This document shows positions 3,601-64,000 of a stretch of DNA of 64,000 nucleotides, in pieces. The notes below the pieces were generated by a model, which was given only the letters and a program-made list of their open reading frames with translations, did no database searches and was not told the DNA's origin. The stretch is from Owenia fusiformis. Its lineage: Eukaryota; Annelida; Polychaeta; Sabellida; Oweniidae. Position numbers and translations under genes: made by a program. The DNA lies in assembly GCA_903813345.2 (NCBI GenBank), contig CAIIXF020000009.1, positions 1,798,001-1,862,000 of the forward strand, in the 5' to 3' direction. Every line of letters begins with the position of its first letter. Position 1 is the first letter of the stretch.

Positions 3601-6600
3601 AACAAAGTTATAGGTCTTTAAAGTCAATTTTTTTTCAAAAAACCTCTCCCATCGAAATAACACAGGAGGCAAAAAATGATTTTCAAAAATGACTTTGAAG
3701 CTCTGTAACTTTAGTATTCATCAAGTAAACAAAATACTTAGTGTACAAAAAGTTCAATTCAATTTTCTATATAAAAATATTTTTTGCTGAATGTTTTACT
3801 GAATAGATATTCCTGATTTCTCATTTGTCCCTAACCCGGCACTTCCCTTTGGTTTACATGGGAATGACGATTTTCAAAAATTCATCTAATTTATCATCAA
3901 TTTTCAACCAATTGTAATTGAGGAAAAAATTGGGAAAATTTGGAAGTATTGGTAATAAAGTCAAGTTACCCTACTATCACACCAAACTAGTTCTCACGAC
4001 GTTCTCGAAAACGGGCTTAAACTGTGCACAAACGGATTTGACGTACTAAGAACCCACTAAGAACCGTTTCGGATCTGTTTACAAACTTCATGAAACTACA
4101 GTGTGTCTCAAAAAAATGTTACACTTACAAAAAGTTCAATATCTTTCATGATTTTGACTTTTCCCCTAACATATACTTAGATACCAAAAGACTTTCTCGA
4201 ATAAATCCACTCCCGCAGATTCAAAATCCGTCCAAGATTGGCTGCACAGGACATATTTTATAGACACATGTGAAATCTGATTTGCGCCAACTTCTCAGTG
4301 GTTGGACATATGGTGATAAATTATTGTTTGGTGTGAATGCTGTGGACAGTGATATATTGATATGATCAATGACCCAGTTGTTTCTTTCCTGGATAGAAAT
4401 ACAAGATTTCATTGTCAGAGTGTTCAATTTTGTTAAGTATGATGGCACCAGGATGGTGCAAAGGCCTGTGGCAGATCGTTTGGTAGAACTCTTTGGAAAT
4501 CAGAAGATAGCATCGAATTACCGGATGGATTGGCCACTAGGGTCATCCCACTTTACACCCTTGGTTTTTTGAAGGGCCTCTGAGAGCGCTTTACAGCATC
4601 AGAAACTGACCTAAATGAACTTCTACAAAAATAATTGATAGAATCAGTGTGATATTACAGTGCATGTTCGCATGGGCAGAATACCTCAGATTTGCTTTGG
4701 AGGACATGTTTAGGGGACCACATGTTTATGTGGATAGACCCAATGATCATAGGTAAGACAAAAAGGAAAATTACAGAATAACTAGTTAAAGGTCAAGCTT
4801 CTACTCAGAAGAAAGTTAAATATTAATTTAAAAGAAACTGTTCCTTTTTTCTCATTTGGTCCATCCAATCACTTAGAAGTTGGCGCAAGTCAGATTTCAC
4901 CATGGGACGCTAAAAGCTGTCCTGTGAAGCCGATCGATGACAGATTTTGAAGTCGATGGTGTCAAATTATTCGAGAAAGATTTGTCTTTTGATATTCAAA
5001 GTATGTTTTAGGGGAAAAATCAAAATTATGAAAGATATTGAACTTTTTGTAAGTGTAACATTTTTTGAGACACACTGTAGTAGAACGAGTATGTTCTCCA
5101 GAACTTAGAGCATGTGTTATATTTTAGCTTTTAGCTACGTATGAATGATTTAACCCTACTATCACACCAAACTAGTTCTCACTACGTTCTCAAAAACGGG
5201 CTTAAACTGTGCACGAACGGATTTGACGTACTACGAACCCACTAAGAACCGTTTGGGATCTGTTTACAAACTTCATGAAACTACTAGAACGAGTAGGTCC
5301 TCCAGCACTTAGAGCATGCTCAACATTTTCTAGTGATCATCAAAACGTTGCCGAATCGGTTTTAAACTGTGTGCGAACTGAATGAACGTAGCTACAACGT
5401 TCCACGGTCTGTCTACGAACTTCATGGACTTTACCGAACGGGGTATGTGATTTAGAATTTTGAATCGATTCAAAATTCGATGGCGACCATACCGTTCTGT
5501 AATCAGGTCATGATGACCTTCTAGACTAAGGGACGGTTTATACTACGTTGCACACCGACGTGTTGCGACCTGAACGAACTGCGAACGTGATGGACGTATT
5601 GAAGACTGTTTATGAACGAAGTAGCTAATTATTTTAGACATATATCCCGACTGCAGCCAGATCGAGCCCGTTTTACGACATTTTCGTAGGACTGGCAAGA
5701 ACGGGTAAGAACTAGTTTGGTGTGATAGGGGGGTTACATAAAACAAGAAGTAGTGTTCCATGTTTATTTAATGTTCAGGATTAATCCTACTCTACGACAA
5801 TAATTATATTGATTGAATCCTGGTTCTCAACTTATGTTGATGGTTTTTAAATAATTTAGAATTTTGATAGAAAGTTACGTAGTTTTGAAGTTTATATCTA
5901 AATGGAATGTTAATGTTGCTTAAACCAAAAATATCCGAAAAGTGATTCTAGACTGAAAATATGCTATCTTAACCAGATTCAAAAGAATGTTAAGACCGCC
6001 TCTTTTCCACATAAGGAATGTTCACGAAAGTAACACTCTTAAAATTTGAACCATACAATACATGCTCAACATTTTCTGGGGATCGTCAAAACGTTGCCGA
6101 ATCGGTTTTAAACTGTGTGCGAACTGAATGAACGTAGCTACAACGTTCTACGTTCTGTTTACGAACTTCATGCACTTTCCCGGACGGGGAATGTGATTTA
6201 GAATTTTGAATCGATTCAAAATTCGATGGCGACCATACTGTTCTGTAATCAGGTCATGATGACCTTTTAGACTAAGAGACGCGTTATAAGACGTTCCACA
6301 CCGATGTGGTGCGACCTGAACGAACTGCAAATGAGATGGACGTATTGAAGATTGTTTATGAACAAAGTAGCTAATTATTTTAGACATATTTTCCCGACCA
6401 CTGCCAGATTGAGCCCGTTTTACGACGTTTTCGTAGGACTGGCGAGAATGGGTAAGAACTAGTTTGGTGTGATAGGGGTGAAACGTTTCCATCAATATTA
6501 TAAGTCATTGCATGTTGATTTAAACAGGAGTAATACCCTTCCAAGGAGCACCAGTGTACTGTGCAACTAAACATGCAGTGGTCGGATATGTTCGATGTCT

Positions 6601-27442: not shown

Positions 27443-29573
27443 AAAGGACCATTTTACGAATTTTACGTCATTGATTATTTTGCAAATTTTAAATGTGATT
27501 GGATTGTTACACAGATTGCATATGTTTACAGAAACGGCAAACGTAGGACAGGGTACTACAATATTCGAAGATGCAATTTGAAATTCAAAGTCTCGTGGAG
27601 CTACATTCCGCATAAAATGTTTGAAAATATTTAAAATTTCTATACTGTCTGTTACTTCATTATGTTTGTCGAATAAATTCAGTTCTAGTTCAGGTTCTAG
27701 TTATACTGTAGTAAAATATCCCATCCACTGTTTATCGGAAACACGCTGCATTAGCCCTCTGTATACGAATTAAACACATCAAAAATCAATGAAATTAAAT
27801 AACATCATAAGTGTTATGGCATTAATAAATGAAATAGAATATATTGACTCACGTTTTCCAGCAGCACCTTCCTGATTTAAATTGATGTAAATCCACAATA
27901 CAAATAAATAATTAAATCCAGAATATACACGTATTATTTCCATACTTCCAATTCCCAAAAATATTATTCCTATTTCGTTTTCATGAAATTGTGTAGATGT
28001 TTAAATTTCAAGTTTAAAACTGTACTGTATTGATGTAACAGGTGACCAGTAATTTGGATCAATTACGAGCATCGCTCGATCTAATTTGCATATTAATGGC
28101 AATTTCAAGACTCTTGATTGGATATTGGCGACAGCGACACCTGTCCATGCATCTGGCGCAACCTGTAATTGCAATCGTAAAATGTAATTACGTATTTTGA
28201 AATAATTGACATATACTTCAAATAAATATAACTTGTGTTTTGGGTATTTTGGCCGTTCTTAACTTCTCAAATGTAATTATCCTGTGTATCTAAATCTTTA
28301 TAACGATATGGAGAAATTGAAAGGAACCATGTCGATACAATAGATGTCATTCCGAACGGAATAAATTGAATTTCTGTTTTATGATAGTAAAAATCTACCA
28401 TCTCAAAATTGTAATTGAACGATTACTGAAATTGTTGTTTCTTTTAAAATAAAGGTTGTCCCCAACGTTACCAATTATTAATGTAATGTCATGTGACATT
28501 TTAATATGTCTTTTAGCATACCGCCTAGGAAAACCCCAATCTTTATTCACCTACGAATCGGTATACTGTTGTTTGAGAGATGTTTAGGACATCAAGAGAA
28601 TAAACATGATTGTTGACGTTATATGGACTATATCCTCTAGTAGGTGCTGTCGTAGTTGACGATTTACATCTCAAAAATGAAATTAATGACGTTTTACCGA
28701 ACTAAGAGAGTAATTAGAAATTAACAATATTACGTCATGTGGCCTGTCAATAGTATCTGTATCTTACAAGGAAGCGATGATTATTAGGTTTGACATTGTA
28801 AAGAATGATGGCTAAAAAAGAAGCTGTCGGGCACAAAAATATCGCTATATAGTGGTTCTTCCAGACATTTGACAGCAAATTTAAATGCATATAACATTTA
28901 ATAGGCATTATATATAGATTTCATTTACCAAATAGAATAATAGTGACTGCCACATTTTTTGGGGATGTTTCGTAGTTTCAAAGTCAGTGGGCAGACTATT
29001 CAGTATATCAGTGGAAAATATACTTTGCTCTATTTAGCCAAATGACAAACCCGACATGCATTACTAAAAAATCGACATTGTCAACAATTAAAATTTGAAT
29101 TGAGATTAAAAATTGAATGAATCATTATAATTGAAATTTTGAGAAGTATGCACCTGTGCACCTTTCTTCATTACAAAAAAATAGTCAACAGTTTACTATT
29201 GTGCGCATAGTTATATATTTTATATTGGTTTAAGTATTTATTAACTCTTCTAATATTTATACTAACCATGTGGGAACCTTCACACCATTGTACATTTTGA
29301 TAAAAAATTCTGTTCAATTCTATTACTTGCGGCATCATGGAATGGACGAAGTTAAAACCGTTTTCGATTCTAATTGTGAGTACCAATAATACGCAGATTA
29401 TCAGCGTTTAGAGTTTTGTGATAATCACTTTACAGTTGTTTTTACTGAGGTAGAAGTTCAATGTACATTGCGTAGTCAGTTCGCGGATCAGTCTCACACT
29501 CATGTTGATATATCAAGAATTTCTGGGCAATATGAGTCATTATATACACCCCCAATCCGCACACTGAAATCAC
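27443..29573. other. Intergenic, no gene seen
   Basis: This AT-rich DNA follows the second dehydrogenase. I see only the poly(A) signal at 27672-27677. No exon with both splice sites and a recognisable product was found on either strand. Confidence 0.5.
27672..27677 (+). terminator. Poly(A) signal of the second dehydrogenase
   Basis: AATAAA occurs about 230 bases after the stop codon, the first canonical signal on the plus strand there. Confidence 0.55.
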
Positions 29574-43500: not shown

Positions 43501-46500
43501 AATTAGGTAACGTCCCTAGGAAAAGCCCTTAAATGAGGCAAAAAGTAAAACCAATTCATTTACAAACTATTGAAAAGGCCTATCATATCATTTCGCTATG
43601 TGTTACCGAATCACCTCTAATTCGATTTTTGGAGCGTGTAACAAATTATGTTCTTAGAGCGAGATGACCAGACATTTGTTTTCACCTATCGTGATTGTTT
43701 ATTCGTCTTCATGCGTTCCGACTATCTATCAATAATTGGGCAAAAGGCTGGCAAAAATCTGGATCAAGTTTTCGAGTTTCAATATCTCACTGAAGCTATT
43801 CAAGTCAAACACAATTAGAGGCACCTGGTTCTTTTTTCACAAATATCTCTCTCCTAGATTTTCCATTTTTTTCTTAATCCTTATCGCATTTGTATGTATG
43901 TATAATTTATTTACCTCTTAATCAAAGAGAGTTACATTCATATAAACATGTAGAGAAAATCTACTAAGATTATAATACATATTAATTTTGTGGACATATT
44001 TGGCTTCCAAATAAATCCAATATGAATTGGAACGCTTAAATGAGGTAAAACGAAACTCTGGTGAAACGTCAGTTTGTGTATGCGATGGTGTTTCTCGCGG
44101 CCTGGGGGTATTACCCGTATAGCATTCGTTTTACTTAAAGGCCGACTTTGCATATTTCCAATGTTTTGGGGCAAAATAAAGACTGCATTTTTAAGAACCC
44201 TATCTTTCCTTTGACACCAACAACAGCTTCAACTGACAACATCAAAGCTGCTTATATTAATACATCAAAATTTATCAATGCGAAGTTGTTTGTATTACAC
44301 GATACATTCATTTTAATAGAAGTGTCACCATCTTTTAAATCAAAAGTAATTTAAAACATGGACTTTGTTTAGCATTTGCATGCACTACTAATGATCTCTG
44401 AAATTCAATTTTTTTCTATGTGAGTTATTTTTTCCTTGGTTCAATATTAAAGCAAATCAAACTTTGTTTCATATTTGAGCGAGTGTTCGAGTAACATGTT
44501 TCAATGATTATTTTTTATTTTTTATTCTTAATTAATTATTAAGTATAGTTGGCCTTTTTAAGCATTCGCTTATAGATAGCTTCGAACTGAACTCTGCGCA
44601 CGGGATATACATGGCGGTATTCTTTGAAATTGATAAAATATAAACGGCACTTGCATCTAAGTGTCTTACTATATTAGAGCTCAATTGGGAATCCGGAGCG
44701 AAAAGTAAGTCAGCGCATGTAAGTGACATGACGCGTTTGTCTGATAACAATGAAATATCCATCCGGGAATAAATTCCGATTTGTTACTTTACAGTCGTAG
44801 TTTCAATTTTTGCAGCTAAATCGAAGCGATTAATACGAATGTCACACTTATTGACGTATGGCAGTGCAATAAATGATGACGTAATCAAACGATTTATAAG
44901 TTATACGGGAATAATAAACTTGCTAATATGCGAGTCGCATAATCAGTCGAAATGTTGACACATGCGCAGACCTCTATTTAGTGATATTTTCATTTCAAAT
45001 ATGGCGGCCAATCCGATGTCTGACGACCCTTACAAAGAATCTAGGCAGTGTGCAATTTTACCTCCTGTGAAATAACAAGTGGAATTTAGTAGTTGTTTTG
45101 TGTTTTATTATCATTCTGCATCGTAATTCTATGTGATGTGGTGTTGAAATGTCAGCAGAAATACATATCCATACGATAATCGAGTGAATCAGATAACAGA
45201 TTTTTCGAAAACACGTCTCGTGCTAAGCGTGTAAAAACTTGTATTAACATGCTCAAAAGTGCCAATGTGCACATCAATGTCAAGCTAAATCAATGTTGTG
45301 TCTAAAACAGGTACCTGATCTACTCAAAACAGCTTGTCATTCACATATACACGCTTAGCAAACACGGCGAAATGATCTGAATCTTGGAATTTCGTTTGAG
45401 AGCTAGTAATGTTTGCTCCGGTCTTCGTCATAAGTGTTCATCAGACTTCACGCATGCTCAGGAGAAAAACCATCAACCAATCACGTTTATAAATCAATTT
45501 TGCGCATGCGCCTTACAACGGTAAAGAAATTTGTATTTATAAACGAACCAATTTGAGATAACCCGATATCAGTCGGAGAAATCTGACGATCTACGAAACT
45601 CACTTCAAAAAATCAAATGCGGACTGACGGCGTATTCTACTATGTTTGGATCTAAGATTTTCAGCATAGATAAAGTCTTTTATGATCTTTCGAATGAGGT
45701 AAGTCTCTAGTTCGAAAGACAATCGTATCAACTTGAACAAAAGTTGAGTTTTGACGAAAAATTTTAACATGCGCAGAAGTCCCATTTTCGTTGTACCATA
45801 TTGACTGTAATCTCGCAATTAATATAAATCTAAACACACGTATAAACACGTCTCGCTGGCAAAATCGCTGGTAATCGTATCCGACTTATTCGAGGTTTTA
45901 TCAATAAACATGATTTTATTGATCATTTATTTGAAAATATGTCACGAAGAAGAAACATAACGTTTTTACGTAATTGCTTATTGGGATCTTAAAGTTGTCT
46001 ATATAAACAAACGTACCCAGTTTCATCAATTTCGGAAGCGACACATTGAATATTTCGCACTTTAAAGTAACACTTTCTTCACTGTTTTACGTTTGAACGT
46101 ACTAGCCTATGAAAAAGCTTGTCCTAAAATGCCCGGATGAGAAAGTTATTTCAGGAAATCAAATTTTGCCTCGGGAAAGCAAATATCACACTGTACGAAA
46201 TCAGCATTTATATACATGTACTTTATAATTTTTGCAGTTGACGGATTCATGTGTGTTCAGTGTGACAGTGACGAAGATCATGCATGCCTTTCCGATCCAC
46301 CGGCTCCAACGAACTGCACAACGGCATGTGATGACGGGGATGAACTTGGTATGTTTGTCCCCGGGAGTGGGGCCGAGTGTAAAGACGGCTTCCTGCAATA
46401 CACTATGTGCATGAATATCAAAACGATGGATGAAAACAGTAAGTTATATATAAATGGTAGTATTATATGTTGTTAACTACGATTTTGTGAAATTTATAAT

Positions 46501-48394
46501 CGATCGGTTGGTTCGTTCAGGGCACGTTTACCTTGGTACATTAGTAGATAGAATTGTTACTGCAAAGAAATACAATTTTTATGATCGGCAAATTTAAAAC
46601 TAACTCCTGAGAACGTAGCTGTATGCTATAATATTGAATTATTAACATTTAATATACATAATTCTGTAGTATAGAGAAGTTATGATGCCTTAAAGGAGTC
46701 ATACGTGTACTTGCTTGATATATCGGGTCCCCTGTGTACAGTATATAATGTTTATTTCATCATAGAGATTAGATTTCGCATTTCAATATTCCATTATAAG
46801 CAGAAAGTAGAACATTTAATAAACGAATGAGTTGCAAAACGTGAATTTATTGGACATACATTCTGAATTTTGCATAATGATCTGTTCCTACGGAGTAATT
46901 ACCCTCTTAACATGTACATCCATATTGGTTGCATCCTCGAACATTTTGCAAGTTAATATCCAATTTTGTTTCGCACAAGATTTTATATTCGATTTTTACA
47001 AAGGACCATATGCACTCTCCACTGGGATCTCCCCATGAGAAAAAAATAATTCATATGATTTTTCAAAATGAGTATTCTACTTTAATTATTACATTTATAT
47101 GCACACTAGTATCTTGTTGACCTATATATTCAGCACTGTATTGATGTATAGGCCACTTATTAGGGTCATAATTCAATCATGAAGTGTAGAGGCATAGATT
47201 CCAAACCAGGAAGTAGTTTTGTGTCTGTCAAAATCCATTTGCATCCTAAGCATCCCTACATCTAATCCAAATATGTTACTACATAATGAAATATAATAGT
47301 GTATCTCATACTTAAGTGGGTTTGGGGTAGATATCACTCGGGAATATATATCATATCTGAGGAGCGGGCAGGATATATTGTATATGTCCAGCTCTAGGCC
47401 AAATGCGGGCAGATATAATATATATAAGTTGTATGATTTTTGATAAGTCTAAGAGTTGTTTTGGAGCATTTTTCTATATGATGAAAAAATGCACAATCTT
47501 TTAATTTTAAGTATGACCTGAATCGATTGCAAACTTCATATTTGCACATTTGCTGAGATAAACCATTTGTGTCATATTGTGAAATTATTAAGTTTGCTAT
47601 CGATTCGGGTCATAGTGTATTTTTGGTATTTTTGTGATAATCAATGGAAACCAATGGCCTGTACAGGGATCTGCTAATATCCTCATGTTAAGTCAATAAT
47701 GTACAGCCCCATGAACGTCAATACAACCTTATTAAACTAAATGTCCCCTATCTCAGCCTATGTGTGCCCAAGCACTTGAATATTTTCTAAAGAGTTATAT
47801 GACATTCTATACTTCATGTTACACCTAAGAATTATTCATTTTGACCATAGGGGTATTTGCCAATAAACGCACTTCTTCCTTTAACAAATCCATCAATGTA
47901 TTACTGAAGGTATGCGCTGGTTTATCAGTACGGTCATTCTGAGCAGCAGTTAATAATTAAGAATTTAAGCGAAATTACCTAAAATATACGTGAACTGCAG
48001 TGCATCAATTTCAATCTGTAGAGTAAAAATATAACCTTGACAACCACTCGACGAATGACCTTGGGTGGGTTATTGGATATATAATGCAGTGCGGACACAC
48101 GTTCCCTTGCTATGAGTGAATATGATATAAAGAATAATTAAAATAGCAGTATGTGACCATCGTTAGGTATCACGTTATGTCGAATACGTTGTAATTTCAG
48201 GTACAAAAGTCCTCAATATGGTGAGAACATGTGCGAGCTCGGACTTTGGAGACGGATGCCAGTCGGGATTTGATGACTCTGGAACTCCAATAAATGTCTG
48301 CACTGTATTTTGCCACATAGATGGCTGTAACCATAGCAATGTTATAAGTGCTTCCTTTTGGTCAATTGTTCTGCTTATCTTTCCATTGCTATGA
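37588..48394 (+). CDS. Ly6/uPAR-type GPI-anchored protein
   Basis: Three exons, 37588-37645, 46238-46438 and 48201-48394, joined by phase-1 introns, encode 150 residues. Exon 1 supplies a signal peptide (MDEFVMYFMFCAVLHSLAT). Exon 2 begins the mature domain with FMCVQCDSD and has CTTAC, EC and MC cysteines. Exon 3 adds RTC, GC, NVCTVFC and the terminal GCN typical of Ly6 domains, then a hydrophobic end (SFWSIVLLIFPLL) directly before the stop, as in GPI-anchored proteins. It is expected to be an extracellular membrane-tethered binding protein. Exons 2-3 are secure. Exon 1 is inferred from phase and hydrophobicity across an 8.6-kb intron and could be replaced by a nearer one. Confidence 0.75.
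38120..38187. repeat. Tandem duplication of about 34 bp
   Basis: The unit containing aacaaataagatgattccat occurs twice back to back in Ly6 intron 1. Confidence 0.85.
38196..38285 (-). repeat. Possible tRNA-derived SINE relic
   Basis: On the minus strand, TAGCTAGGATGGTGGA resembles a pol III A box, and GGGTCGATTCCCAGT about 45 bases downstream resembles a B box. The cloverleaf is not convincing, so I read it as a degraded SINE head and not a tRNA gene. Confidence 0.3.
40245..40805 (+). mobile_element. CR1-type non-LTR 3' fragment
   Basis: Decayed coding sequence gives HHHYTRQLHYF and then GPNLWNALPHDIKKCSTLNI, which matches the HxYxTR...GPxxWNxLPxxIK end of many CR1-like elements, followed by a stop and a 3' UTR. 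The 3' end is a short ATTGA repeat (ataaattgaattgaattg), as expected for this group. It is 5' truncated, frame-broken and lies in Ly6 intron 1. Confidence 0.75.
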
Positions 48395-51300: not shown

Positions 51301-52716
51301 AATCCACCTTTTACATGAATCCAATCCACATAAGGCTTGGCATTTGAACCACATCAGGCGTATATGACATTTACGCTCTGAGGTGTCACATATTGTTCCT
51401 ATATCGTGTCTTGGCGCCACAGTTCAACGATATCTTCGTGAATTCTTGTTCCACAGACACGGATGATAAGGTAACTGATTTGCAGTGATTCGGTAACGCT
51501 ATGAGTCTATAATGGAGAGCTAACAGATGTCATGAGCAATACACGTTGCTCCAACTGAAATTTCTAAACCTCCCTCATCGACGTATCTCTCTTACCTTGC
51601 CTTGATTTACCAAAGCATGTCAACTATAAAGTGGTTTAATTCAATGAAAACTAAAAACATCAAAATCAACCCTTATTGTCCGCCATCTTGAATGTGAAGG
51701 TAACTGCCATTACCCTCTCTTGATACCAACCAATGAGTCACGGACTACCCAGTACTCAATATTTCGGTTATAATGAAATTACATTGAGAAATCAAGCACG
51801 TTTTTTTCAAAAAAATAATCTGAGTTCTGCTATTTATATATATTAAAATGAAAACCATTATCGTATTTGGAGCAAATTACTAGCATTTTAGAGCCAAAGA
51901 AGCATTCGAGCACCCAAAGTATACCATACGAGTGCTGGAGATTCCGTTAACACTAATAAATAAACAGTAAACATTGTTATTTACGTTTTTATATAATTAT
52001 TTCGATTTGAGTTTATTGTCAAAATAAGAACAAACTATTACCAAGTAATCAACCTCCATCCAAAATGAATACATATACATTGTATGCATGCTTTTCAATG
52101 AATCCTTCATATTTAAATGAGGTTATAATATAATCACTTTGTAATTTGTATTCGGAACTAGAAAGAATAAATAAAAATGAACACAACATTGTATCGTTGA
52201 TTGAATGAGTCATGGCTATGTACATTTACTAAAATTCTACAGTGACTATAAAACTAAGATATAAAATATAATGGGTACAGCAGTTTGGTTGGAGCATGTC
52301 GTAAAGCTTTTTCACCCTTGCTTTAATTGATCGCTTTACACATCTTAACATATAATAGTTAGAATTATCGTCCATTATTGTCATAAAGATGTCGCTGTAT
52401 GTCCAAGACAGTACTCTGAGTCCTGATTGATAAAAGATGAGAACGAGGGTAGTCCTAGAATCGTTTTCAAGAATAGATATTTGATTTATTATTCCTTCCT
52501 CGTTTTACACAGTTACTATCAATTAATGTAGATATTACGTTGCGAGGAAGTGGTAGTGTGAAATGTTTGATATTGGCACCAGTAAGTAAAGGCATGACCA
52601 GAGTGACATCTATGAAAGCATACATTCGCTGTATTATTAAAAATATGTAATTAATGCACTCAAAGATGTCGCTCTCGTCAGATTAACGTCGGTTCTCCAA
52701 ACTGAGATTCAAATTG
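48395..52716. other. Intergenic, one foldback repeat, no gene seen
   Basis: I see no exon of a recognisable family between the Ly6 and LIM genes, which converge here. It contains the inverted-repeat element at 50620-51735 and a (TA)n run near 50540. Confidence 0.45.
50620..51735. repeat. Foldback element with inverted arms
   Basis: 50622-50720 and 51632-51733 are inverted copies; both contain attcaagatggcgga and flanking words. A second inverted pair lies inside (about 50745-50790 and 51297-51335). There is no coding content. The ATGGCGG here belongs to the repeat and is not a gene start. Confidence 0.65.
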
Positions 52717-52816
52717 TTAAAATTGCTCCTTCGCCTGCAGATTCTTTCCCGTCACTTGCTGCTGGAAGTGAAGCTTGCAGAAAAGGATTCCCTCACTCTG
52801 TCTATAGTTGTTCAGG
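52717..52816 (-). CDS. LIM gene alternative terminal exon C
   Basis: The exon begins after attgcag and is exactly 100 bases. With the shared exon's two leftover bases it reads NLNNYRQSEGILFCKLHF and ends QQQVTGKNLQAKEQF before TAA. It supplies the last zinc ligands of LIM finger 2, CKLH. It is the most distal of three parallel versions. A downstream AATAAA on the minus strand lies near 52484. The acceptor and frame are intact, so I expect it to be used. Confidence 0.82.
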
Positions 52817-53403
52817 CTGCAATGATATCGTCATGTATAGGCTTCTAAATGCACATATTTCTTATTATCCCCGACCTTCCACCGTTCAAAGCAGTTGGCG
52901 AACTTGACTAACTTTGGTTGAGTATTTTTAAATAAAACCACAATTTGCTCAATGGTGGTTCTAATATTGCAAGCATCCCATCACCATATACTTATCCCAT
53001 AATAGTGTAAGTTGATTTCGTCCATTTGTAATTAATCAAAGTATTTTAATTACTTGCATATTGTTCCAAACACCAGTGATCGAATAACTAATCAGTTGAA
53101 AACGTGATCACCATAAAGATAATAAATGAAGGAGAAAAATCCCTAAGTGAATGTGCATAGTTAGCAGTTGAAGCATTGCGTATTTATTTCTATAATACTC
53201 TAAATTTTGACTAGATCTGTGTACCCTAGGACGACGTAATTCAGCATAATGCGACGCAATTCACCAGCCTAAGACGACACATCCCGCTGCCTATTTATCT
53301 AGTCTATAATGATATACAGAGGCTCTTAATATAATCTAGTCTCTATGAATTGCTATAGACTAAGAGCCTCTGAAAATCAGAAAATGTCACTTTAAGATAT
53401 ATT

Positions 53404-53503
53404 CTAGTACTGTGCGGTACATTGCAGATTCTTTGAGGTGACCTGCTCGTGGAAATGATTCTTGCAAAGAGGAATCCCTTCATTCATCGCATAGTTATTC
53501 AAG
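53404..53503 (-). CDS. LIM gene alternative terminal exon B
   Basis: 100 bases after a ttttag acceptor. It reads NLNNYAMNEGIPLCKNHF and ends HEQVTSKNLQCTAQY before TAG. It supplies ligands CKNH to finger 2. The variable Ala-Met-Asn-Glu segment replaces Arg-Gln-Ser-Glu of exon C. An AATAAA lies near 53183 on the minus strand, before exon C, so it could form its own 3' end. Confidence 0.82.
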
Positions 53504-53805
53504 CTAAAACCAAGAAAAGCATTTTGATCATAAGATAAATCTCATTTCCACTAGGAAAACTGCTACATGTTTAGTTTATATGATACTAACTATTTAGAAG
53601 AAACTAATTTGTAATTACAAAGTTTTTTATACATTTTTGATTTTAAGTATTAAAATCATTATCCCTTAATCCAAAATTAAGCATTTTGAGCTGCATTAGG
53701 CTAATTAGAAAAGTATATTAAAACTGTTTGGAACGCATGCAAATTGAAATACGGTAAAGAAGGCTAAGGTATCAACATACTAACAACATTACAATTAGGT
53801 AAAAA

Positions 53806-53905
53806 TCAGTATAGAGAGGGGGCCTGGAGGTTTCTTGCTGTAACATTTTTGTGGAAATCGCTCTTGCAGAAAAGCACACCGTCACTCTGGCAGTAATTGT
53901 GAAGG
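53806..53905 (-). CDS. LIM gene alternative terminal exon A
   Basis: 100 bases after a ttacag acceptor. It reads NLHNYCQSDGVLFCKSDF and ends HKNVTARNLQAPSLY before TGA. The last zinc ligand here is Asp (CKSD) instead of His, which is allowed in LIM domains. There is an extra Cys in the loop. It is nearest to the shared exon. I see no canonical AATAAA before exon B, so its 3' end is unclear. Confidence 0.82.
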
Positions 53906-55085
53906 CTGTAATGATGCCAAACGAAAGTTATTCACAAACACAACGCAACACAAATCAACACAAACGTTAGTATACTGTACGTAAATGGCGAAGATTTACG
54001 ACACACACAAAATGTTAATGGGTTCAGTTTATTATATCTAGGTCACGTTAGTCAGGAGTCATTGCTCGCAATACGATATTCTAGTAGTTTTAATATGTTG
54101 CACAAATTATAAGCGATTGGATTTTAGTTATTCTCTGAGATAACTTTTCTCGTAAGAAAGTACAAGTATTACTATGTCCCATCATTTCTAAGTAGTTAAC
54201 GTATACATAAATATATTGGGCGAGACTTGAGAATTAATATACATTGTCACTCAAAATTGAAACTTCTGATTGGGTTTGGAGCCGAGATGCCCGGATATGA
54301 CCGAGCAAAAGCCGAAATTCACGTGACTTTTTTTTGACCTAAAAATACTTTATGAAGCATCAAATGCCACATTGCTCAGTTTAACAAATGGAAACATCAT
54401 TATCTAAACAGCTGACCTAGCAAAATATTGTAGTTATTCGATCAAATATGTAGTTGATAATAGGGGTCATACCCGTATTTACCCGCATGAAAGTTTTGTT
54501 GTTTCAGCAGGACGTGTATGGGAAGAACCGGCGAAGAAAATACACTTCAAAATAAACGTTGAAAATATTCATTAATTGGCACACGAGTGACTGCTTCCAT
54601 ATCATATTAAGATATAAACGAAAGACTGAAACCATCTGCATATTCTAAGTTGAGTATTTCCTATTTGGTAATGAAACTGAAGAAATATTGGCACTAAATG
54701 GAAGTCGTGTTCTCATATTACCAGTGTTATGGTTTCTGTAGAACTCGGCGATTTTTATTTTTTGCGTAAACAAGCTCTGCATGGTCTGTATGTTGTTACC
54801 TACTCGCTGAAGTTGGTGGGTGTAAAAGCAAGCACTGCTACAAATATAACTAAAGTGAGGTAACTACATTTACACATTCTAAACAAGCAAATCTTGTTCT
54901 ATCTTCCCTCAAGAGAACATGTAGTCATTGTTCTAAAAACATTGCTCCAAAAGCAGGGCTCTAAACATCGTTTAGTGAAGGAACGCATTTGGTACGCCTG
55001 GAGCCTTCCTACAATAGCATAGTGCAATGCTAAATGCAAGAATTCTATGTGAGGGATTAGATTGACATTCAAAACACGCATTTAA

Positions 55086-55311
55086 ACAGTGACGGATCCA
55101 CAAATTAAAAAGGGGGGGGGGGAATTTTGAGTCTGGAAAAAAAGTCCGTTCTTGCGCGGAAAAAGATTTTGGGCTCCTAAGACCAAAAATTAAGGCACAT
55201 TCTTGGTAAATTGACCAAAAATGCCTAAAAATGCCAAATTATGCCAAAAGGCCCATTTTTGAGGCCCTATATGCGGCTGAAGCCATGCCCCCCCCCCGGA
55301 TCCACCACTGT
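55086..55311. mobile_element. Short MITE with CAGTG-GGATCC ends
   Basis: CAGTGACGGATCCAC at the left and GGATCCACCACTG at the right are inverted, each next to a G or C homopolymer. The CAGTG start suggests a hAT-like MITE. No clear 8-base target duplication is visible. It lies in the LIM intron. Confidence 0.5.
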
Positions 55312-55899
55312 TATAATGCATTATGTTTTGAGTATGTCGACATTTCGTCACGTGACACGTGCAATGCGCATGCCCCAAAAGCTTTGATTCAAGCAGTGCT
55401 TGTCACACTGTCATACCTTGCAATAGGTGTAAATGAGCAGCCCATCTGACTAATCCATAATAACGATTAATTATTTGTTTTTAGACATTTTTCTCTATTA
55501 TTTTGAATTATTGAATACGTTATCTTATATGTTTTTCTATTTGTTTTAACTAAACAACCAAAGGGAACTTTGAGGGTGGCTCATTTATTCGAAATGATCG
55601 GTATGATAGCGTGATTATTTTGCAACAACAACACAACAACAGCAACAACATATGTTAGACATACTAATTCAAAATACTTCAACATAGCACTATCCATCAC
55701 TTTAAGTTAAATAACAAAATTAATCTAATTTAAATGACAATGCAACTCTACTAATCTATATGTCTATCAATCCATAAGTTCTAGACATAATTAGCAACAA
55801 CATCCAAAAATTCAAACAAAACAAGATCCCGATAAATTCAACTCAAGGTACACTTGTATACATTAAAGGCTCCACACGAGCGAATCCTTCGAGACTTAC

Positions 55900-56024
55900 T
55901 TGAGTGTGAGGTTGCATTCTTTACATTTAAAACATGACTTATGGAATGGAATCTTTCCGGCCTCGATCCTCTCTGCAGCGTATACGGACTTTGTGCAGAC
56001 TCCGCACTTCTCAATCTGTCCTCC
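55900..56024 (-). CDS. LIM-domain gene, shared exon (finger 1 and start of finger 2)
   Basis: 125 bases between a ttccag acceptor and a GTAAGT donor. It reads GGQIEKCGVCTKSVYAAERI and then EAGKIPFHKSCFKCKECNLT. The ligands are CGVC and HKSC of finger 1 and CKEC of finger 2. It ends in phase 2, and all three downstream exons at 53806-53905, 53404-53503 and 52717-52816 start with one C that completes an Asn codon. The domain resembles the single LIM of EPLIN/LIMD2/MICAL-type proteins, which act in cytoskeletal or adaptor complexes; that role here is inference. Upstream exons, including the start codon, were not found. Confidence 0.87.
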
Positions 56025-56035
56025 CTGGAATATAA

Positions 56036-56190
56036 ACACTAGCCTTTAACGAGATTTAGCACAAGTAATATAAACACTAGGCTTTAACGAGATATAGCAC
56101 AAGTAATATAAACCTAGGCTTTAACGCGATATAGCACAAGTAATATAAGCACTAGGCTTTAACGAGATATAGCACAAGTAATATTTATTA
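56036..56190. repeat. Tandem repeat, about 39-bp unit, four copies
   Basis: Four near-identical units containing ctaggctttaacgagatata and agcacaagtaatata follow one another. They start only 11 bases upstream (minus strand) of the shared LIM exon, in the preceding intron. Confidence 0.88.
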
Positions 56191-59084
56191 AGACTTTAGG
56201 TCATGCCATGGGTGTTTGATAACAGTTCTTTATTTTCGGAGGTGAACACTTTTCGTTCACTTTAAATAGGTTTCACTGTGGGTCACAGGCATATTTAACT
56301 CTCCCTTTAAAATAACTTCAAATGATTTCATATATTTGGATGCAACATAGAGTGGTGTTATTTTCAACTTGATAAGGTTGAAATGCGTAAAACAGCCACA
56401 AACATTTCCGAAGTTCCATATATTTATAATTGACTCTCCCACGCAGTAACATTAGCTTTGAAATCCTAGCTGTTTGGCTGATTGATGACTTCACCCCCGG
56501 GACTTCACCGCACTGAAATGAGTTTTGTATCAGAAAGTGTCTGATAAATTGCACTGCGTTTCTGACCCATCCCCCAGCCAATGATGTCATAGAATAAATC
56601 AAGAGTTTAGATGATAACAATTCGATCGTTGTTCGTCATTTAAAAAAAGGCGCACGCAGACTGACTTGAGAGAATTCAGCCGATTAGCTTATTGGGCCAT
56701 AAACTGCTTCTCGTCGGACATTTCCTGTAGTTTTGCGTTAGACTTCTTCATTACTAGAGGTCATAGAATCCATTCGTCAAATTACCATGCAATTTCGGTA
56801 ACTTGTGGTAAAGTCATGTAAGGTTAACTCTTTGAAGGCGGGGAGTAAAAAAGTTAAAACAACTTGACCGGTATTTGACCATTTATTCTTAGGATTACTC
56901 TGTCCTCGCAAAACAGGCCCATCTCGACATTAATTTATTAACAAACCCAACAGAAAAATTAACTATTATTGTGATACAACTAGGGTCTGTGTGGGCTTAC
57001 AAGGGAGCCATAATATCTGGAGGTCTATCATTTCGATCTTCAAAACCGGGCTTCAATGTACCAGTAACATGAAGCATGTTGTACAAAGTATATAAACATT
57101 TTGACTGGTAGCGTTTTTCGTAAACGCTAATTGAAGTGGCAGCTTGATTGATTATTCGGGAGTCACCTGTACATATTGCATACATGTACTCTTATACATT
57201 TGTAATCAAACGTGGACACGAGTGCTTCAATTTGACAGTAATGTTTATGTCTAATTAACATGACATTTGCTCGTGAAGTTTGTTTTATATAGTGAAATGA
57301 TACTTTATCAGACATGTTTTCATGTTTACATTTTCTAGTGGTAGTTTACTTTGATTTATGTGGTTGACGGATGGAATTTCTGACCCGATAGGGTTTTGAT
57401 GAAATTGTAGCTGAGATACCGTATTTGAAATAACGATTCATTTAATCCATTCGGAAGTTATGTGTTAATCCAAGTGTCTACAGTTTAATGCAAAGCCGCG
57501 AAAATACTTCATATCGAGTCGTATAAACTTTAGAAACTTGGCTACGGATAAGCAAGTCTATCTCGACCGATGACCAATGCACAACTTAAGTCATATGAAT
57601 ACGGTATCATCTTATTTATTTCATAGCATATGATATGTATAGGGAAGAGATCAAAAGAGAATCAGAGGGTCTCCTAAAACAGGAGGGGTACACGGAATAA
57701 CCCGACAGTTCAATCATGTAATGATGGTTGAAATAGTAAATTCTTTCTTTAAGTGATCCGACAGAATTAGAAGTGCCAACACTTGTTATCGTGGCACTTA
57801 CACCGACCATTGTAAATTATTTTAAGACTTGGAGTACGATATGAATTTTTATACAGACAGCAACGGAAAAAAGATTTTCTTCGAGAACCTTAGGATGGTT
57901 CAATTTACCTTTGAACATATAGACACGGGTATTCCACACATCATACACACTGCATGTTATTTGATAATGATCGTTGTGGCTTCTGACTGCATGTGGATAC
58001 GTTCCACATTTGTTTTTGTTTTGTTTATTAAAACATAATCCAGATAATGTGCCACATAAACTCTACAAGTAAAAGCTCGTGGCATATAACGTCTTGTTTT
58101 CGAGTCAAGCGCCAGAACATGAACATTTTGAACGATTTACAATTTAGAAATGCTGCCTAATCTCAAACATATATAATTAACCAAGCCATGTAATGGCCAA
58201 AACAATCATTCTTCTCAAGAAAAATTATCGTAAGCCATATAAACTTTTGGAGATCGTTTCTCTATTAACACATTTTTGTGACAACTATGTTGAGACTTCC
58301 AATGTTGCCTTATAATATGAAGGGACGATTGAACATATAAAAGTTGGATAAAAGTTGGAATGAACCAGAACAACACAACAGTATTTGGGGATATGGTTGG
58401 CACATTACCCTGCGTGCAGAGTCTAGTTATAAACGAGTAAAGGCGAAGCTATCTTCTAAGAAATGAAGTCGAAAGAATCCAAAGGGTATTGGCATTAAGA
58501 ATTTAGACGAAATTTAGTATTTAGGTATCCATTGAACGAAGTGAACCATTTGCTTATAATCAGTTCATTAGTTCTCACAAAGTCCCCCAAAATAACCTCG
58601 AAATATCAGAAACAGTTGCCAACTTGTTATCTGAGCGTATCTTTGAATTACGTCCACTGAAGACATTTACGTCTATTTATGTAAGCTCTCTTAGATACTG
58701 TTGCTAGTAGCTTTGAAATGCAACATTCTGACCCAAGCTGTTACAGATATGCGATATCATATCTATGTAAACATTCTAACATGCTTCTGGATATCTTGAG
58801 GTTATATGGTGGAAGGAAGGAAATTCCATGTCCTCTCAGAATATCGAGGTATCAGAAATAGTTAGTCATAATTTTAATATTATAGGTCAAGAAGATTTTT
58901 TTATTTATTAAAATCATATTAACATATTTACATAATATGATACTCAAGATATTGTACTCAAGCCACTCAAGGCCTTTTTAATTAGATATGATGATTATGT
59001 AGCTATAGGGTTTGTAAGGTGTCTAAATGTGTTTCACTAGAATTTCTCACAAGTGGCTAAATAAATGAAAACAACAGGCAAAGT
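56191..59084. other. No gene seen (probable LIM gene upstream intron)
   Basis: I see no exon with a recognisable product on either strand. If the LIM gene continues upstream on the minus strand, this is intronic. Confidence 0.4.
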
Positions 59085-61845
59085 TAATACTCTAGTAGCT
59101 CATGCTGGTTGAGTATGCACTTCTATGTCCAGAGATTTTCTCATCAGAAATCATCTATGTGAAGGTCATTGATCAATTTTGGCTTGGTAACATATTTGCC
59201 ACTGAAGGCGAAATAGGTCAAATGGCCACGCCCTTTTTTACGCAAATACTCCCCCCCATTTTTGCATCTCCGGAACCGTTGGACATAAAAGGTTGTGTGA
59301 CCACTCAAAATGTCGGGAATGGCCACATTATAGGGGGTCAATAATACATTTGTATTTAAAAAAGTCAATGGTTCTCAAGATATTTCCCAAAAACTGATTT
59401 TAGAATGAAAACTCCACTATTTTCTCCTTTGATCCTGTCCCTAGCTCCGATTTCGTTACTCGGCTGGGAAAAAAGGTTTGTTGGTATCATTTTGTTCCAG
59501 ACACTCTCTAGAATAAATTCATCTTGGGTGGAATAAAAATGTGTGGTAAACGAATTCGCTATGGGCAGTTAAAGAGGCGCCATCTATTCATTTTCAAACA
59601 GGGGGTAGGGGTATAAAATAATTTTTTAACACATTTTAATAGTAAAATGACATTGAAATAGTAAAATGACATTGAAATACTAATAAAATCTTATCAAAAA
59701 CATTATTTACAATCAGTATGAATTTTCTTGTGTGGATTAGGGTGAAAATAAGGGCATATCTTGAAATTCACTACAGGGGCGCCACCTATTTCTGTACGTG
59801 TACTAACTTATTTTAGATTCGTTAAGGTACGAAATGTACTGAAAAAATTCATTCTGAAGGACCTATACATGTTCATACCACATACTTAAAATTAGATCAT
59901 TAGCTTATGTACCAGCGAGGAAAAAATTTAAGTCCAGAGATTTTCTCTTCAGAAATCATCTATGTGAAGGTCATTGATCAATTTTGGCTTGGTAACATAT
60001 TTGCCACTGAAGGCGAAATAGGTCAAATGGCCACGCCCTTTTTTACGCGAATTCTCCCCCCCCCCCATTTTTGCATCTCCGGAACCGTTGGACATAGAAG
60101 GTTGTGTGACCACCCAAAATGTCCGGAATGGCCACATTATAGGGGGTCAATAATACATATGTATTTAAAAAAGTCAATGGTTCTCAAGATATTTGCCAAA
60201 AACTGATTTTAGCATGTTACGCACAACAGTTTTCATCTATCCTGCATCATTTAAGACTGAATCCGCAGCTTCTATCTAGTCAGATCAGCGAAGGAAACAA
60301 ACTTTTTTGGTTGTTGAGTTGAAAATTAAAATTTTTTAAATGTATAATCATATTCCTACATCTTATTAGTATAATATTATGACAAAGCAAGAGTACATAC
60401 ACCATTTTGAGTTTATTTGAGATACATATGCTCCATATTTTGGAAGTTATTAAGGTGACATATGGTCACCCCTGGGACGTCAGAAGCCAAAATGAGAATT
60501 AATAATTTCTAAAATGTACAATCATTTTTCTACTTCTTATTACTAATATTATGACAAAGCAAGAGTACATACACCATTTTGACCACATTTGAGATACATA
60601 TGCTCCATATTTTGGAAGTTATTAAGGTGACATATGGTCACCCCTGGGACGTCAGAAGCCAAAATGAGAATTAATATTTTTTTAAATGTACAATCATTTT
60701 CTTACTTCTTATTACTAATATTATGACAAAGCAAGAGACACCATTTTGACCACATTTGAGATACATATGCTCCATATTTTGGAAGTAATTAAGGTGACAT
60801 ATGGTCACCCCTGGGACGTCAGAAGCCAAAATGATAATTAATATTTTTGTTAAATGTACAATCATTTTCTTACTTCTTATTACTAATATTATGACGAAGC
60901 AAGAGTACATACACCATTTTGAGCACATTTGAGATGCATATGCTCCATATTTTGGAAGTTAATAATGTGAGATATGGTCACCCCTATCCTGCATGATACC
61001 AAAATTTTAAATTTCAATAAATTTTTTCTCCGCTGGTACATAAGCTATTGATCTAATTTTAAGTATGTGGTATGAACATGTATAGGTCCTTCAGAATGAA
61101 TTTTTTCAGTACATTTCGTACCTTAACGAATCTAAAATAAGTTATTACACGTACAGAAATAGGTGGCGCCCCTGTAGTGAATTTCAAGATATGCCCTTAT
61201 TTTCACCCTAATCCACACAAGAAAATTCATACTGATTGTAAATAATGTTTTTGATAAGATTTTATTAGTATTTCAATGTCATTTTACTATTAAAATGTGT
61301 TAAAAAATTATTTTATACCCCTACCCCCTGTTTGAAAATGAATAGATGGCGCCTCTTTAACTGCCCATAGCGAATTCGTTTACCACACATTTTTATTCCA
61401 CCCAAGATGAATTTATTCTAGAGAGTGTCTGGAATAAAATGATACCAACAAACCTTTTTTCCCAGCCGAGTAACGAAATCGGAGCTAGGGACAGGATCAA
61501 AGGAGAAAATAGTGGAGTTTTCATCCTAAAATCAGTTTTTGGGAAATATCTTGAGAACCATTGACTTTTTTAAATACAAATGTATTATTGACCCCCTATA
61601 ATGTGGCCATCCCGGACATTTTGAGTGGTCACACAACCTTCTATGTCCAACGGTTCTGGAGATGCAAAAATGGGGGGGGGAGTATTTGCGTAGAAAAGGG
61701 CGTGGCCATTTGACCTATTTCGCCTTCAGTGGCAAATATGTTACCAAGCCAAAATTGATCAATGACCTTCACATAGATGATTTCTGAAGAGAAAATCTCT
61801 GGACATAGAAGTGCATACTCAACCAGCATGAGCTACTAGAGTATA
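59085..61845. mobile_element. 2.8-kb palindrome (long-arm foldback element)
   Basis: Arms at about 59085-59920 and 61018-61845 are inverted copies with very few differences over about 830 bases. The ends read TACTCTAGTAGCTCATGCTG, flanked by TAA on the left and TAA on the right, a possible 3-base target duplication. The loop holds a further direct copy of the outer arm (59925-60237) and a tandem array. There are matching short open frames in both arms but no transposase. It looks like a non-autonomous, recently formed element. Confidence 0.78.
60320..60990. repeat. Tandem repeat of about 170-176 bp, four copies
   Basis: The word tattatgacaaagcaagag recurs at about 60373, 60549, 60720 and 60889. 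Each unit also contains gctccatattttggaagt and ggtcacccctgg. The array forms the loop of the palindrome. Confidence 0.9.
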
Positions 61846-64000
61846 ATGGAAATCAATAAATTCAACATGGAAACGTTGAAAGTCCCTACTATATGCAGTA
61901 GTTATGTTGCCTGCATCAAGTATACCCACCCCAAACCCATTGATGAGTATAACATTTAAAAAAAGGTGGATATGGAGTAGTATACACGATAAAGCCATAC
62001 AGCTCAAAATTGGACAATATTTTGTTGAATCGATGGGGCACATAAGTATGTTTACAATTTTTGTCCAACTCATCTGTTTGTGATATGAGTACTTTGATTC
62101 CAAGCAAGCCTACCTAGTTAACCTTATCATGGCTTGGCTGGATAATCCTTCGATAATCCATGGGCAAGATTAGCAGATTATGATATTATCTATTTATAAC
62201 ATAAACACGATATACTTATAAACATTCGGTCCCTACAAAAGTTCGCAGAATCGGCAAGATCAACAATGATGTGTAGTAGTACTTAAGCTTCATTAAATGA
62301 AGATGAGCAATACGAAATCATCGATGCATTGAATTAAGTGTTTCAGAACTTTGAATAAAGTTAGACATTCCAGATTGAAATTCGAAAATGAACAGAAGAT
62401 TAAAATTCATATCCCGATCAATGAAATCTCGTTGTAAATTTTCCCGCGAAATCCAATCTATTAGACTGTGCGATAAATATCACCTTCTATTTGTTGAATG
62501 TGGTTATCAAAATAATTGAAATGGCATGTTTTTGATTTGTAACTTTTTATACTATCTCAAACACATTTACATTGACGTCTGGCTCTACTGTTTCAATAAT
62601 GACTCATCCAACTTTTTATATTCCTGCTATCAGCGTGATGAAAACACACTTGTAGTGGGTAGTGATATACTGATGTCGATGCAACCTCGAAATACAGATA
62701 TGTTCAAGCTTAAGAATGGTTGTTTCTTGAAACATAGAATATTAAGAAAATATGCTTTAGAATTGATATTTTTGAAATGAGTTTCACTACTTTACAGGTA
62801 AATTAAGGGTGAACTTGGAAGGACAGAATCAAGAGATATAACGTCTTAGGTGAACTGCTCTTCTCAATTTATCCGCGGATCTAAATCATATTTAAGTACC
62901 TTTTAGAAAGGGTTATTTATTGTGTCTCGAAAATTGAAATACGATTTTGAAATAGGTGTGAGAGTTAATTGAAATGAATGAACTCTTGAGAGTAAAAACT
63001 AAGCATGTTGGCATCACTGGTAAATATCATTATATTTGGGCGAAACACGAGGCCGGTCAGATTACCTATTACCAGAGTAGGCCTACCATATTCAAGGCGT
63101 CAACAATGTTACATATGCACCAGATGCAACATATGTTTATAGTCAGATCTAGATGATCGGGGAGCATATAATTATTCTGAATCTATAAATGTTTTTTATT
63201 TTAATTTTTTTATTTTCTCGTGATCTTTTTGAGTGTAGTTGATATGTAAACAACGCAGAGTTTATCCAGTACCAATGCGGTATTTGCATGTGGTTTTGAC
63301 TGTATGCAAAACACGATCCTTTAACGCATTGTGTATGTATAAACAACGTTAGATACGCCTACACGATCCTTTAATTATAAATTGCTATCTAACATATGCC
63401 AGTTGTTTATGTTTATCTATAGTATATCGCTTCTTAATTGAAAGAAAATAATTACATTACGAGAGGTACTTCGGCGTATTCAGAGTGCCATCGTTAATGT
63501 GAATAAATTAGTGCAATGTATATATAGTAAAACTAATTAATTAGAAAAGCCCTTTTTGACTATAGAATCAATCATAGTCTCATTGGATTGGAGAAAAATA
63601 GTCGCAGACCTTTACAAAAAATTAATTGTATAATGAGTAATAATAATTGCCCAATTCCATCAAAACGTTTCCATTTTCAGAACTTGAAAAATACGATTTC
63701 CCCTTATTCGCATTTTACATGAGAATCAAAACCCTTGCTATATCCTTACCCCTTCAAAAGGATGATTTCGTTAAACAAAAATTAACCTAAATGGGCCTAT
63801 AATACAAGAATATGAGTTCACTTAATACGCACACGTTAATTATGAAAGCATTTGTTACCGATGCGGTTCATCTTCGCACTCAGTTCGAAATATACTAAAT
63901 GTTTGAAACTTTGGGTTGAGATAAAAAATGAAATGTCGAAAATCATCATCCAAGTGAACGTTTTTCAACATGACGGAAGGTTATCAAAGGTCATTACAAA
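61846..64000. other. No gene seen
   Basis: AT-rich DNA with only short, unconvincing open frames. No exon, RNA gene or repeat is supported. Confidence 0.45.

Follow-up and report, generated by a model that had tools for sequence, protein, structure and literature searches.

Tandem exon duplication leading to mutually exclusive terminal exons has been described for pip, PGRP-LC and CG42235 (PMC9013439), and that source states homology of the tandem exons for pip, a case that it treats under untranslated region (UTR) duplications. In PMC5740500, terminal-exon candidates are set apart as a group whose inclusion comes about by alternative promoter use or alternative cleavage and polyadenylation. 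Fgfr2 exons IIIb and IIIc alter the second half of an immunoglobulin (Ig) domain and hence ligand choice, according to PMC4566030. Within LIM genes, exon skipping in mec-3 of C. elegans leaves the first LIM domain truncated and short of two conserved cysteines (PMC11524483). Here we describe a candidate LIM gene in a 64-kb stretch of the Owenia fusiformis genome (C9:1798001-1862000, the whole of which is called the window below), in which one shared exon is followed by three tandem last coding exons, cassettes e1, e2 and e3, each capable of supplying the second half of the same zinc finger. We consider it probable that the locus is a LIM gene with three old terminal half-finger exons that are alternatively joined to one donor. 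In adaptors of the actin, muscle and transcription kinds, LIM domains serve as modules for protein binding. Whole-genome searches were carried out on the 498-Mb genome in 525 contigs.

The shared exon starts with GGA GGA CAG in phase 0, closes with CTC AA in phase 2, and contains the whole of zinc finger 1, ligands 5-6 of finger 2 (CKEC) and then NLTL. Its terminus reads CFKCKECNLTL followed by the split AA, with GTAAGT directly after. A first-pass annotation, made from the sequence of the window, had placed the end of this exon after CKEC in phase 2; the phase holds, while the end lies four residues further on, behind NLTL. The same annotation listed three downstream exons of exactly 100 bases, each starting with C and each closing with NLQ, five private residues and a stop, all of which is borne out by the cassettes in Table 1. 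Each cassette is preceded by AG, its 100 nt include the stop, and its first base C combines with the AA of the shared exon into an AAC (Asn) codon. Thirteen of the 33 residues are identical across the three, the tail before the stop is NLQ-x4-aromatic throughout, and the coding sequence stops 16 residues beyond the last zinc ligand. The cassettes are tandem homologous exons of equal phase, each with its own stop, behind a single donor. It is because three intact, phase-compatible terminal exons of equal length follow one donor that the locus supports the reading given above.

Table 1. Features of the candidate LIM gene and its surroundings (window coordinates)
Feature	Position	Strand	Description
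Shared exon	55900..56024	-	125 nt, 41 codons + AA; GGQIEKCGVCTKSVYAAERIEAGKIPFHKSCFKCKECNLTL + AA
Splice donor GTAAGT of shared exon	55894..55899	-	8.8 bits (our own weight matrix)
Cassette e1, candidate alternative last coding exon	53806..53905	-	NLHNYCQSDGVLFCKSDFHKNVTARNLQAPSLY, then stop; eighth zinc ligand Asp
Cassette e2, candidate alternative last coding exon	53404..53503	-	NLNNYAMNEGIPLCKNHFHEQVTSKNLQCTAQY, then stop; eighth zinc ligand His
Cassette e3, candidate alternative last coding exon	52717..52816	-	NLNNYRQSEGILFCKLHFQQQVTGKNLQAKEQF, then stop; eighth zinc ligand His
AATAAA, possible poly(A) signal	53183..53188	-	216 nt past e2 stop
AATAAA, possible poly(A) signal	52485..52490	-	227 nt past e3 stop
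Hairpin	53310..53379	-	24-nt arms, 83% complementary, 12-bp perfect core; 25-94 nt past e2 stop
38-bp minisatellite	56029..56184	-	4.1 copies; at 3' end of upstream intron

Zinc ligands of LIM domains are spaced as C-x2-C-x17-H-x2-C-x2-C-x2-C-x17-C-x2-(C/H/D). When the shared exon was spliced in silico to e1, e2 or e3, the eight ligands fell at positions 7, 10, 28, 31, 34, 37, 55 and 58 in all three products, in LIM spacing, and the products scored 41, 42.9 and 39.3 bits against the Pfam LIM model (PF00412), all above its curated cut-off of 22.9 bits. The second zinc site is divided between exons, with ligands 5-6 from the shared exon and ligands 7-8 from the cassette; in e1 the latter pair is C plus D, in the other two cassettes C plus H. 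It had been claimed that the zinc ligands are kept among the cassettes and that the loop and tail differ, and the spacing, the three Pfam matches and the cassette sequences all agree with this. Among structure chains with a single LIM domain, LIMD2 was the best match for the e3 form (58.3 bits) and the e2 form (54.1 bits), and MLP scored above LIMD2 for the e1 form (50.5 against 49.1 bits). Whole-chain totals were led by the two-domain CRP1 for the e3, e2 and e1 forms (64.1, 64.1 and 71.0 bits), its single domains scoring 34.7 and 34.4 bits with the e3 form. The LIM domains of EPLIN/LIMD2 and CRP/MLP (PDB 2lzu, 2d8y, 1b8t, 2o13) are the best sequence matches of the products. Going by LIM folds in general, the cassette-encoded half presumably forms the outer hairpin and the helix; we take a PDZ-type reading of the tails (-SLY, -AQY and -EQF) as speculation only.

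The matches of the cassettes to one another exceed chance. Within the window, the e1 peptide matched e3 with an expectation value (E) of 4e-9 and e2 with E 2e-8, the next best match having E 0.11. The e2 peptide matched e3 (E 2e-10) and e1 (E 2e-8), followed by a match at 29390 on the other strand (E 0.003). Genome-wide, three matches to the e3 peptide were obtained at E<=10, and they are the three cassettes, although weak matches can escape such searches. No further copy was found genome-wide with the e3 peptide, or in the window with the three peptides (for e3, among the matches listed). At the DNA level the cassettes form one family of three 94-nt copies, with identities to e3 of 66% (e2) and 70% (e1). 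The shared exon gave 14 matches in the whole genome, of which the first was itself at 100% and the next had E 6e-5 at 43% identity. An assembly artefact or a recent duplication is ruled out by the 36-44 differences per 100 bases between cassettes. The cassettes have a common origin, and the earlier proposal that exon duplication made the array is supported by the single DNA family together with the results on age and selection given below.

The same genome has a paralog at C6:33.16 Mb, whose own best matches are LIMD2 (83.5 bits) and EPLIN (77.5 bits). In its first-half exon an AG precedes the opening GGAGGA, which is in phase 0, and the end is CNHCHRVL in phase 2. The intron place and phase 2 are common to both genes (CKECNLTL/AA in the window gene, CNHCHRVL/GG in the paralog), and because position and phase agree we regard it as the same LIM-domain intron in both. 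A single second-half exon of 74 nt was found in the 8 kb read at the paralog. It meets a donor after KSK+G and looks internal, the frame continuing past the LIM domain through that donor, whereas the cassettes of the window gene have no GT there and run on to a stop. The array likely arose from an ordinary internal second-half exon that was turned terminal and then multiplied. The ancestor would have been an EPLIN/LIMD2-like or CRP-like LIM gene with an intron splitting zinc site 2; its ordinary second-half exon would have lost the donor, turned into a last exon carrying a short tail, and undergone two duplications long ago.

Two other LIM loci carry tandem copies of half-domain coding stretches. 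In a relative at C6:36.09 Mb (L020, C6:36094500-36102500; 331-560 and 1541-1960), the first half has lost one zinc cysteine (CKVY). Two second-half exons follow each other there at a distance of about 240 bp, and as the first of them is apparently broken, the locus forms a decayed parallel to the window array. Since a second-half exon was duplicated and decayed at that locus, the intact triple in the window stands out. LIM gene L008 (C4:14716500-14725000, about 4193-5079, minus strand) contains a young 149-bp tandem array, for which two of the overlapping Tandem Repeats Finder rows give 95% and 98% matches. Each unit has an AG that resembles a splice acceptor, together with coding sequence for a LIM first half. 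Among three copies read, one reaches a donor-like site and two do not. It is possible that this array is an exon duplication in the making.

Base differences between the cassettes amount to 44 (e1-e2), 38 (e1-e3) and 36 (e2-e3) per 100, with third-codon-position differences in excess (22/34, 21/34 and 18/34 in the same order). The proportions of silent differences (pS) are 0.97, 0.83 and 0.90, which is saturation, and those of replacement differences (pN) are 0.31, 0.28 and 0.24. Because silent sites are saturated, the cassettes are old. A comparison of replacement and silent substitution rates (dN/dS) between the three exons had been proposed as a check in the first-pass annotation. Our own maximum likelihood (ML) codon-model fits with preset base frequencies, which are rough because of the saturated silent sites, gave pairwise dN/dS of 0.145 (e1-e2), 0.111 (e1-e3, with kappa at its lower bound) and 0.152 (e2-e3). 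Neutrality (dN/dS of 1) was rejected in all three pairs, twice the log-likelihood difference (2dL) being 13.2, 17.0 and 11.0, and the check thus came out as 0.11-0.15 with neutrality rejected throughout. On a three-branch star tree an all-neutral history was also rejected (2dL 31.1).

To this tree the second-half exon of the C6:33.16 Mb paralog was added as outgroup (24 codons, three topologies). The best topology joins e1 and e3, with a log-likelihood of -305.5 against -308.7 and -308.7. On it, imposing dN/dS of 1 costs 2dL 8.7 for e1, 4.6 for e2 and 0.4 for e3; on the other two topologies the costs are 7.5 and 8.7 (e1), 6.1 and 6.1 (e2), and 0.3 and 0.3 (e3). Given these costs, e1 and e2 were each under constraint along their own branch. 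Neutral evolution was also simulated with substitutions only, in 200,000 runs scored for retention of the frame, stop, AG and both ligands; survival was 0.018, 0.0012, 8.5e-5 and 1.5e-5 at 0.3, 0.6, 1.0 and 1.5 substitutions per site. The shared exon compared with the paralog exon gave dN/dS of 0.13 with neutrality rejected (2dL 20.6), the divergence lying at the upper bound of the fit. The set as a whole has long been constrained, and that the cassettes are old and the set has been kept as protein by selection is, as judged from these fits and simulations, well supported.

Several observations weigh against a gene with three functioning terminal exons, and the first group of these concerns e3 in particular. 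With only the three cassette branches in the tree, none of them taken singly rejects dN/dS of 1 (2dL 2.6, 2.4 and 0.1), and the e3 branch fails to reject it with the outgroup as well (2dL 0.3-0.4). Free fits shrink the e3 branch to about zero length with dN/dS at or near its upper bound, and it is not estimable there. Acceptors were ranked with a simple weight matrix of our own among the 3,102 AGs on the minus strand of the window, placing those of e1, e2, e3 and the shared exon at the 97th, 92nd, 70th and 94th percentiles; the e3 acceptor is weak and has a poor pyrimidine tract. A good acceptor had been claimed for each cassette, which is true of e1 and e2 and not of e3. These features would be expected if only one or two cassettes were in use and the remaining one, for which e3 is the best candidate, had been retired recently and not yet decayed. 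An e3 branch indistinguishable from neutral (2dL 0.1-0.4) and the weakest of the three acceptors favour such a retirement, and the relative at C6:36.09 Mb provides an example of such decay, having lost a zinc cysteine and keeping, of its two second-half exons, one that looks intact beside one that is apparently broken. However, none of e1-e3 has lost its frame, its stop, the AG or either ligand, the NLQ-x4-aromatic tail is retained throughout, and when e3 is set neutral in the fits its neutral time comes to only about 0.1 substitutions per site (0.12 on the star tree, 0.09-0.11 with the outgroup). We regard retirement of a cassette as unlikely.

The remaining splicing and polyadenylation signals add further points on the same side. 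Donor-like GTs occur inside e1 (7.3 bits), e3 (6.2 bits) and e2 (5.1 bits), compared with 8.8 bits for the real donor. Neither AATAAA nor ATTAAA is found between e1 and e2, where there are variant hexamers only. AATAAA is present in 32% of 300-nt stretches on this strand, and for that reason the two hexamers past e2 and e3 are weak evidence, compatible with separate poly(A) sites. The idea that every cassette has a poly(A) signal was accordingly not used as evidence, AATAAA being common and e1 having only variant hexamers.

A third group of adverse points comes from the DNA upstream of the shared exon. An in-frame ATG is absent from this exon. When 40 kb of the minus strand (window 54001-64000, continued as far as C9:1892000) was scanned with Pfam, nothing exceeded a curated cut-off; the LIM half and other weak matches all stayed below theirs. 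Nothing better than E 0.005 emerged when 28 kb of upstream DNA was compared with two paralog regions, and among 15 open phase-0 donor candidates upstream of the shared exon none was convincing. Small LIM proteins frequently have a short first coding exon, which would escape searches of this kind. The locus could possibly be a relic of a LIM gene. In its full form, this would make it an orphan LIM remnant without 5' exons from which nothing is translated. Such a remnant would fit the failure of the Pfam scans and paralog comparison to identify an upstream coding exon or further domain, as well as an upstream intron that ends in a 38-bp minisatellite, with only CCAG between the minisatellite and the shared exon. 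Yet the frames and splice sites are intact, and dN/dS is 0.13 for the shared exon (2dL 20.6) and 0.11-0.15 for the cassettes, and we find an untranslated remnant very improbable.

If the locus is indeed a LIM gene with alternatively joined terminal exons, the single donor at 55899 would join, in each transcript, one of the acceptors at 53905, 53503 and 52816. The first cassette joined would set the C-terminus, whatever comes after it. Because every cassette has its own stop, exclusivity would be enforced by translation and no exon-exclusion device would be needed. Alternative use of the cassettes in transcripts is likely, and we infer that the choice among them is regulated. It would come from competing acceptors of unequal strength together with the poly(A) site reached, and tissue-specific splicing factors would probably add to it. 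All products would have zinc finger 1 and half of finger 2 in common; what sets them apart would be the outer hairpin and helix, the identity of the eighth ligand (Asp or His) and the five-residue tail. As such, they would most likely differ in binding partners or stability; that they actually switch partners is a guess. A fuller version, in which three interchangeable half-fingers have long been kept so that the transcript picks partner surface, tail and Asp/His ligand and thereby tunes both partner choice and metal-site stability, we put forward as a tentative possibility, more doubtful than sound.

A different device for the choice alone would be competing long-range RNA pairings between docking and selector sites, as reported for PGRP-LC, CG42235 and pip of Drosophila. 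A 14-nt perfect complement exists between the intron (54431-54444) and the interval between e2 and e3 (53077-53090), which would loop out e1 and e2, and the 8-mer GAATAACT occurs four times, and its complement once, within the array. Against this, the systematic 8-mer statistic was ordinary: of 300 random sequences drawn from a first-order Markov model with the same dinucleotide transitions, 136 attained the observed value of 4, which is also common elsewhere in the window. With a systematic count not beyond chance, the 8-mer pattern and the 14-nt complement were set aside, and we give competing pairings very little credence as a mechanism.

The hairpin downstream of e2 was considered as a mobile element and rejected, as no second copy was found in a genome search. 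Folding of the 121-nt stretch around it is not unusual (z -1.35, with 18 of 200 shuffled versions folding equally well). Within the 64-kb window, further perfect 12-bp hairpins (loops of up to 60 nt) are confined to a pair of repeat arrays, at about 29.57-29.74 and 33.83-34.09 kb, and one site near 24.35 kb. On the plus strand, window positions 46141-46476 and 48167-48394 hold cysteine-rich open frames that, read from the translations alone, resemble two exons of a Ly6/uPAR-type small secreted or glycosylphosphatidylinositol (GPI)-anchored protein.

A half-finger swap in which the metal ligands are divided between constant and variable exons would, if true, be a compact natural set of partner switches on one scaffold. 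If partners differ, the three cassettes would reveal directly which LIM residues set specificity. The arrangement of the array also shows that exclusivity among terminal exons is enforceable by stop codons alone.

No LIM gene with alternative half-finger exons was found in the literature on LIM genes and zinc fingers, among the titles and beginnings of abstracts that were listed. The first-pass annotation knew of no described case with this exact design; the exact design is uncontradicted by that literature, while both of its component designs are already known. The likeness to Fgfr2 is that alternative exons supply the second half of one binding domain, in the window gene as a matter of anatomy alone; Fgfr2 has two such exons in a receptor immunoglobulin domain and experimental evidence, whereas the window gene has three terminal exons in a zinc finger and is known from sequence. 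The IIIb and IIIc exons are internal to the Fgfr2 transcript. C. elegans mec-3 resembles the locus in that alternative splicing changes part of a LIM domain, but the accessible part of PMC11524483 gives it no replacement half, and the window gene has three candidate halves. With Drosophila pip, PGRP-LC and CG42235 the locus shares tandem alternative 3' exons or regions behind a common part, which in those genes are mutually exclusive (PMC9013439). These belong to other protein families, and the window gene is cut instead inside one of the two LIM zinc sites; the competing RNA structures reported there for the three Drosophila genes are unsupported in the window array. As far as the literature reached, the locus is thus a new combination of known gene designs, the new part of which is the cut through a LIM zinc site.

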